64,000 nt of DNA from Singulisphaera sp. GP187. GTDB lineage: Bacteria; Planctomycetota; Phycisphaerae; Phycisphaerales; SM1A02. Within the stretch, counting starts at the first letter, position 1. The number at the start of each line of letters is the position of its first letter. Of this stretch, positions 36,289-37,123 are shown piece after piece. The notes below the pieces were generated by a model, which was not told the origin of the DNA, did not search any database, and saw nothing but the letters and a program-made list of their open reading frames with translations. The stretch is from the NCBI GenBank assembly GCA_945868805.1, contig CAMBMO010000002.1, positions 159,978 to 223,977 of the forward strand, read 5' to 3'. The position numbers were made by a program, and so were the translations under genes.

Positions 36289-36873
36289 TCAGTCTGCCTG
36301 CGTTTCAAGTGCCAATCGCGCGAGCGAATGATTCGGATCATTCAACTTCTCGCCGATGGCCTGCGCGACATTCGGCGGCACGAACGGCTTGAGTTTCTCC
36401 ATCGATCCGCCAAATGCGGCAATCTGCCGAATGAGACTCGAAGAAAGAAAGGCATACGCCTCGCCCGTCACGACGAAGACCGTCTCGACGCCTGCGACCT
36501 GTCGATTGGTGATCGCAAGCTGGCACTCCGATGCGAGGTCGGTGACATTGCGAATGCCACGGATGATCCCGGATGCGCCGCAGGTGCGTGCGAAGTCGAC
36601 AGTCAGTCCCGAGTAGGTCGAAACCGAGACTCGCGCACCATCCGGCTCGCGCATGACGATTTCGGCGACGAGTGGCTCGAGCAATGCGATGCGCTCTTCG
36701 ATGGGGAAAAAGTCGGGCTTGTCGGGATTGCGTCCGACGGCGACCACCACTTCATCGAAGAGTCGCCGAGCGCGACAGAGCACATCCAGATGTCCTAACG
36801 TTGGGGGATCGAACGACCCGGGATAGATCGCGAGGTGGTGCTTCGGGTTGTGTCGGGTTGAACTGCCAGCCAT
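36289..36873 (-). CDS. coaD: Phosphopantetheine adenylyltransferase
   Basis: AIYPGSFDPPTLGHLDVLCRARRLFDEVVVAVGRNPDK ... ASGIIRGIRNVTDLASECQLAITNRQ ... SSSLIRQIAAFGG. Confidence 0.95.
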   Translation of the reverse strand: MAGSSTRHNPKHHLAIYPGSFDPPTLGHLDVLCRARRLFDEVVVAVGRNPDKPDFFPIEERIALLEPLVAEIVMREPDGARVSVSTYSGLTVDFARTCGASGIIRGIRNVTDLASECQLAITNRQVAGVETVFVVTGEAYAFLSSSLIRQIAAFGGSMEKLKPFVPPNVAQAIGEKLNDPNHSLARLALETQAD

Positions 36874-36939
36874 GAACGCAAGTGTAGGGTGTCGATAATG
36901 AAAATTCAGAAATCTCCAGAACTGGACTTGCACTGCCTC

Positions 36940-37084
36940 TTGGGAATCCGATCATTGGGTTGCAGTCGCAGTTGTGTTCGACTGAGGAGGCATGAAACGG
37001 GAAGCGAGAGGTTCGCAATCCCGACTGACAACCCTGGATCGGCCCCGCATCGGATCTGCCTCCCCGAGCGGGGCCTCCATTTTT
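36940..37084 (+). ncRNA. Candidate structured ncRNA (three-way junction) followed by intrinsic terminator
   Basis: CCGATC(36948-53)/GATCGG(37037-42), GGGTTG(36957-62)/CAACCC(37029-34), CAGTCG/CGACTG, CGGGA.GCGA/TCGC..TCCCG; then GGCCCCGC(37041-48)/GCGGGGCC(37068-75) and TTTTT. Confidence 0.4.
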
Positions 37085-37123
37085 GCCTATTCGTTCTCGG
37101 CGCCCGGTTTCACCGAGCCCGAC

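Follow-up and report, generated by a model that had tools for sequence, protein, structure and literature searches.

The window analysed here is a stretch of 64,000 nucleotides from a 2.5 Mb planctomycete MAG (47 contigs), whose coaD relatives are those of Phycisphaerales-type MAGs. On its minus strand it carries a coaD gene for phosphopantetheine adenylyltransferase (36289-36873, recognised by its open reading frame and its relatives), and divergently from it, on the plus strand, a region that an initial annotation had folded into a three-way junction and taken for a candidate novel structured RNA. Direct reading of the plus strand found each of the strings of that proposal in its place: CCGATC (36948-36953) and GGGTTG (36957-36962) for the 5' part of a closing stem P1, CAACCC (37029-37034) and GATCGG (37037-37042) for its 3' part, CAGTCG/CGACTG (36963-36968/36979-36984) for P2, CGGGA-GCGA/TCGC-TCCCG (36998-37023) for P3, and the two halves of a terminator stem (37041-37047/37069-37075). 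The region 36930-37090 folds better than its shuffles on the plus strand (z = -2.1, with 4 of 200 shuffles equally good), and likewise on the minus strand (z = -3.0), so that folding energy alone cannot settle either the strand or the reality of the structure, and it is homology that does. By that measure the structured RNA is real and was placed on the right strand, but the fold was partly wrong and the element is not a riboswitch.

With positions 36900-37100 as the query, blastn against 61 genomes returned a chain of clear matches. Several members of the genus are 95-97% identical in the 3' 58 bases; at the level of the family, identity is 84-91% over some 45 bases, and at the level of the order the matches are weaker. 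These fall on the 3' part of the plus strand, CCCTGGATCGGCCCCG..GCCTCC..CGGGGCC, and every match better than about 1e-5 is this same 3' core; the homologue search that had been proposed with the initial annotation thus finds the region kept in most relatives. After 49 homologues had been aligned, a covariance model (R1) was built and used to enlarge the set. Model R2 places the core in 201 of 400 Phycisphaerales genomes and 98 of 163 genera, nearly always as one copy per genome. Beyond the order, a few good R1 matches lie elsewhere in the class (family f9, at about 1e-10), whereas those across the phylum are weak and mostly unconvincing; phylum matches of 23-35 bits were left out of the counts, those that were inspected having no loop or lying inside genes. 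Neither the window nor any of 40 homologous loci matched a family of Rfam 15 at its gathering score, which agrees with the earlier statement that no known family could be recognised, and a permissive Rfam scan gave chance matches only. The existence of a conserved structured RNA gene is thus strongly supported by comparative sequence analysis, and these loci would be the founding set, in the Phycisphaerales, of a previously uncatalogued sRNA family, with no match in Rfam and no mention in the literature searched.

The heart of this RNA is the hairpin GGCCCCG-UCGG-AUCUGCCUCC-CCGA-CGGGGCC (37041-37075, plus strand), which had been seen only as a terminator and which covariation and an invariant loop identify as the key conserved part. 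Among the 49 homologues of the unfitted alignment A1, 8 of its 12 pairs change on both sides. In alignment A4 (69 sequences) 96.6% of the cells of the core stem are paired and double changes occur in 11 of the 12 pairs (100 cells), with none of 500 shuffles reaching any of the covariation measures; A4 is fitted to the model and leans towards its structure, but the result holds in the unfitted A1 as well. Covariation was counted on A4 because the MAFFT alignment A3 puts the stem of family f6 in the wrong place. While the letters of the stem vary freely (GGCCCCG/CGGGGCC becomes GGGUCUCG/CGAGACC in family f6), the loop GCCUCC (37058-37063) shows no change in 65 aligned homologues. The description as a candidate novel structured RNA is upheld by conservation across the order, by the strong covariation of the core and by the lack of an Rfam family.

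A conserved unpaired segment, CAACCCTGGATC (37029-37040, plus strand), precedes the hairpin, and its TGGA was invariant in the first 49 homologues. Family f2 has the variant CCCCUG(CGAA or GUGUG)..GCCUCC, in which CCYUG is kept despite the replacement of GGAUC. What defines the RNA as a whole is thus a core of two parts, CCYUG(GAUC) and, after it, a terminator-like hairpin whose loop reads GCCUCC. Minimal forms of about 65 nt contain little besides the core hairpin, and the core is therefore taken as the functional unit. The lineage of L132 carries GCCUCC in the loop of a second hairpin too. Three loci (L229 and L232 of genus g432, and L142 of genome G049, genus g28) keep CCCUGGAUCGG or CCUUGGAUCGG and have lost the GCCUCC loop; the g432 variant without the loop is still divergent from coaD. 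As the loop is lost there and the 5' strand kept, the strand must matter as well, which suggests for CCYUGGAUC a role of its own that a simple loop-seed model would not explain. CUGGAUC and CCUCC (37032-37063) also recur in the 3' end of 16S rRNA, CUGGAUCACCUCC, a likeness weakened by the lack of GGAUC in much of family f2. No 16S gene was found in the MAG of the window.

A T run (37080-37084, plus strand) follows the core hairpin, which thus forms an end like that of an intrinsic terminator, and a T-rich tract lies 3' of the core in all members of the genus. Since the core is terminator-like in most lineages, with a T run after it, one might see in it merely a conserved intrinsic terminator, or else a chance fold. 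Terminator function, however, requires neither an invariant loop nor an upstream CCYUG strand; moreover, there is one such hairpin per genome only, it is followed by a separate terminator-like hairpin in the clades of L079, L054 and L107, and a conserved promoter-like motif lies upstream, all of which leaves this explanation with almost no probability. Further hairpins and a separate terminator come after the core in several lineages.

The promoter-like element is situated within GAATCCGATCAT (36928-36955, plus strand), a motif conserved upstream of the cores, with a -35-like TTGC (36928-36931) and a -10-like GATCAT (36950-36955). The element, TTGC-N-GAATTSGAtnnT, was counted as TTG[CAT]-N-GAA..[GC]AnnnT. 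Of 111 distinct loci, 43 have it upstream of the core, where shuffles would lead one to expect 0.9; since these loci are not independent of one another by descent, the ratio overstates the independent support. A looser form of the motif gave 62 against 6.9 in the same 111 loci. The element recurs in distant families with differing spacing to the core, and a count over 402 kb of the window genome showed no enrichment at other places. GAATTSGAtnnT (36944-36955 in the window, and its counterparts in the homologues) is unlike the sequences before four tRNA genes of the same genome, and may be read by a dedicated sigma factor. Given the position of the -10-like element, transcription should begin near 36962, and the predicted sRNA transcript would extend over about 123 nt, from this start to the T run (36962-37084, plus strand). 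For this predicted transcript, the excess of the promoter-like motif, the T run and the existence of loci without a nearby coaD argue for independence from the neighbouring genes; its own promoter-like element, the order-wide conservation and the loci without coaD favour the stand-alone sRNA that the initial annotation had put forward as a possibility.

The 5' half of the proposed fold fared less uniformly. The two halves of P1 are paired in 74% and 49% of cells, with no double-sided change at all, and P1 is broken in most congeners; as its 5' strand falls on the promoter-like element, this strand is most likely untranscribed promoter. The three-way junction that P1 would close is not retained either, for want of covariation in P1 and because its 5' strand overlaps the -10-like element. 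P2 holds as a 5' hairpin (36963-36984), with 95.5% of cells paired and double changes in 4 of 6 pairs over 15 members of the genus. P3 (36998-37023) holds in part: a hairpin is predicted there in nearly all members of the genus, and compensatory changes occur at several pairs despite alignment gaps, but its sequence and length are variable. Near the end of P2, the linker GAGGAGGC (36984-36991, plus strand), conserved in the genus only, is complementary to the GCCUCC loop. Within the genus this pairing is kept in 91%, without double change because the loop is invariant. The proposal that AGGAGGC pairs with either of two copies of GCCUCC is thus conserved in the genus but not demonstrably beyond it, and the second copy (37073-37078) is not conserved even there. 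As a family-wide trait, internal GGAGG-GCCUCC pairing was rejected, with 9.1 against 4.9-6.2 expected over 36 lineages, no better than the control GGTGG.

An ATG at 36993, after AGGAGG, means that in the window AGGAGGCATG could start a peptide, MKREARGSQSR..., and the RNA could then be a small messenger. The spacing of one base is too short for this, the ATG is missing in most members of the genus, the frame and the length of the 5' domain vary, and the minimal forms have no room for a frame; a messenger is scarcely credible. The frame from 36993 is not kept in the genus, in line with the earlier remark that no open reading frame could be recognised.

In other lineages the stretch from promoter to core measures about 16 to 231 nt and has no, one or several hairpins. 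In L019, L057, L060, L061, L069 and L072 it is occupied by short hairpins repeated in arrays, with GGGCCC..GGGCCC stems or UGGAGGGA loops, their number differing between species. In L079, L080, L085, L101 and their relatives, a highly conserved hairpin with the loop UAAGGGACUC stands 5' of the core, while 3' of the core there is first a hairpin whose loop has GAGG and then a separate terminator.

Families f1, f2, f5 and f6 have the RNA divergent from coaD, a gene order which suggests that the linkage dates back to the origin of the order. No coaD, however, lies within 1.5 kb on either side of the RNA in families f4 and f9, and in a marine clade the RNA is on the other side of coaD. That the RNA lies upstream of coaD in most families, and that the minus strand folds well too, could point to a cis-acting leader or riboswitch, for a gene on the plus strand or, read from the minus strand, for coaD itself. 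Yet it is the plus strand that carries the T run and the promoter-like motif, with no plus-strand gene downstream, P1 does not covary, and the RNA occurs without a neighbouring coaD (f4, f9) just as coaD occurs without the RNA. As each is found without the other, the element is neither a coaD leader nor a riboswitch, readings to which we attach very little probability. The riboswitch-like overlap of P1 with the terminator, as first described, falls with them: no gene follows on the plus strand, P1 is unsupported, and several lineages have separate terminators.

The absence of an adjoining coaD in f4 and f9 implies that the RNA can act in trans. We consider it somewhat probable that it is a stand-alone, Hfq-independent, trans-acting sRNA, the terminator loop of which pairs with GGAGGC-like sites of mRNAs. 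The conserved core is an unpaired C/U-rich loop in a covarying hairpin, as in the mode of action of RepG and αr14, and from such a fixed loop in freely changing stems, common to RepG, αr14 and GsrN, we infer pairing in trans by UGCCUCCCC. The sRNA, some 120 nt long (about 65 nt in its smallest form), would be transcribed from near 36962 to the T run near 37084, and its terminator loop would present UGCCUCCCC to target mRNAs, pairing with G-rich or Shine-Dalgarno-like sites that have a GGGGAGGCA core. Such pairing would change the translation of the targets without Hfq, which is absent from 21 of 21 genomes. The GCCUCC loop and CCCUGGAUC are expected to be open in the 123-nt RNA; in this genus, the GAGGAGG stretch that links the two 5' hairpins may cover the loop and modulate its accessibility. 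If the loop is the active part, one would expect just such forms of about 65 nt, with nearly nothing but the core.

The three systems differ from the planctomycete RNA as much as they resemble it. RepG of Helicobacter pylori is likewise stand-alone, with a C/U-rich terminator loop as its pairing part (PMC8295292); no sequence relation to it was found, and where RepG has a homopolymeric G repeat in tlpB as its partner, the loop here is a fixed GCCUCC. The αr14 sRNAs of alphaproteobacteria (NfeR1) also combine an ultraconserved CCUCC-type anti-Shine-Dalgarno loop motif with freely varying stems (PMC10746234), but they have three hairpins with CCUCCUCCC in their loops, whereas the planctomycete RNA has one GCCUCC loop and an unpaired CCYUG strand, and no Rfam match. 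In GsrN of Caulobacter a C-rich loop, again its most conserved part, binds G-rich mRNA leaders (PMC5869019), but this loop is in the 5' part and the gene is tied to the general stress response, not to coaD. In 402 kb of the window genome, the start regions yielded weak candidate sites only: GGAGGC precedes 5 of 592 candidate starts where 1.6 were expected, the cases not being independent, and a 7-base match to the loop before a start was found for one gene only. Shine-Dalgarno sequences are weak in this genome, so that a generic anti-Shine-Dalgarno mode would have few sites.

Binding of a protein is the other way in which the RNA might act. A decoy of the CsrB/RsmZ kind would bind CsrA through GGA motifs in hairpin loops and free CsrA-repressed mRNAs; CsrA genes are present in 40 of 41 related genomes, Hfq is absent from the 21 genomes searched for it, several hairpins with GGAGG-type loops occur in L019, L060, L069, L072 and L086, hairpin number varies as in CsrB-type RNAs, and most members have UGGA within the core. 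CsrB and RsmZ, however, have many GGA loop motifs, while the 5' domains here show no overall enrichment (140 GGA against 148 expected) and the minimal 65-nt forms have few; much of family f2 lacks the core UGGA, and members of the genus without the RNA still have CsrA. A decoy is thus unlikely. The genus of the window (G000:C8:58437-58601 and relatives) has a divergent CsrA-like protein only (about 55 bits), and many other Phycisphaerales have both this protein and a standard CsrA. Rather less implausible, though still doubtful, is a protein scaffold, in which a conserved protein would recognise the CCYUG strand and the GCCUCC loop and the RNA would act in a ribonucleoprotein, not by pairing. 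Its single copy, its order-wide occurrence and the sequence conservation of both unpaired segments would suit such a role, as would the retention of the strand with loss of the loop in g432 and g28; against it stand the lack of a protein candidate, the highly variable and dispensable 5' domain, and the many genomes of the order without a detectable copy, which also indicate that the RNA is not essential.

More tentatively, and beyond pairing by the loop, the CCYUG strand and the GCCUCC loop may jointly form a recognition site of two parts, to which either mRNAs or a dedicated protein would bind, in an order-wide RNA class that works without Hfq and is possibly the first such global sRNA in the Phycisphaerae; no order-wide regulatory sRNA of this class was found in Rfam or in the literature searched. 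For a phylum with many uncultured species, the RNA offers a concrete handle on post-transcriptional control in bacteria that have no Hfq and seldom rely on Shine-Dalgarno sequences, and hundreds of genomes can be annotated with the covariance model of its core.

6S RNA (RF00013), likewise single-copy, stand-alone and of similar size, has a different architecture, and it was rejected as an identity for the RNA, since 6S matches, where present in the relatives, lie at another locus. Within the Phycisphaerales (loci G045:C12:12644-12826 (L154), G041:C99 (L155) and G043:C57), 6S RNA can be recognised in some genomes, while in others, the window genome included, it is borderline or missing.

The R2 search gave no match in four genomes of the window's own genus. 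In the near relatives L043, L045, L046 and L047 there is a clean absence of the RNA gene from the interval that separates coaD from a FabZ-like gene, and the gene that stands there beside coaD is the one that follows the RNA in other relatives; these four are a natural knock-out for comparison.
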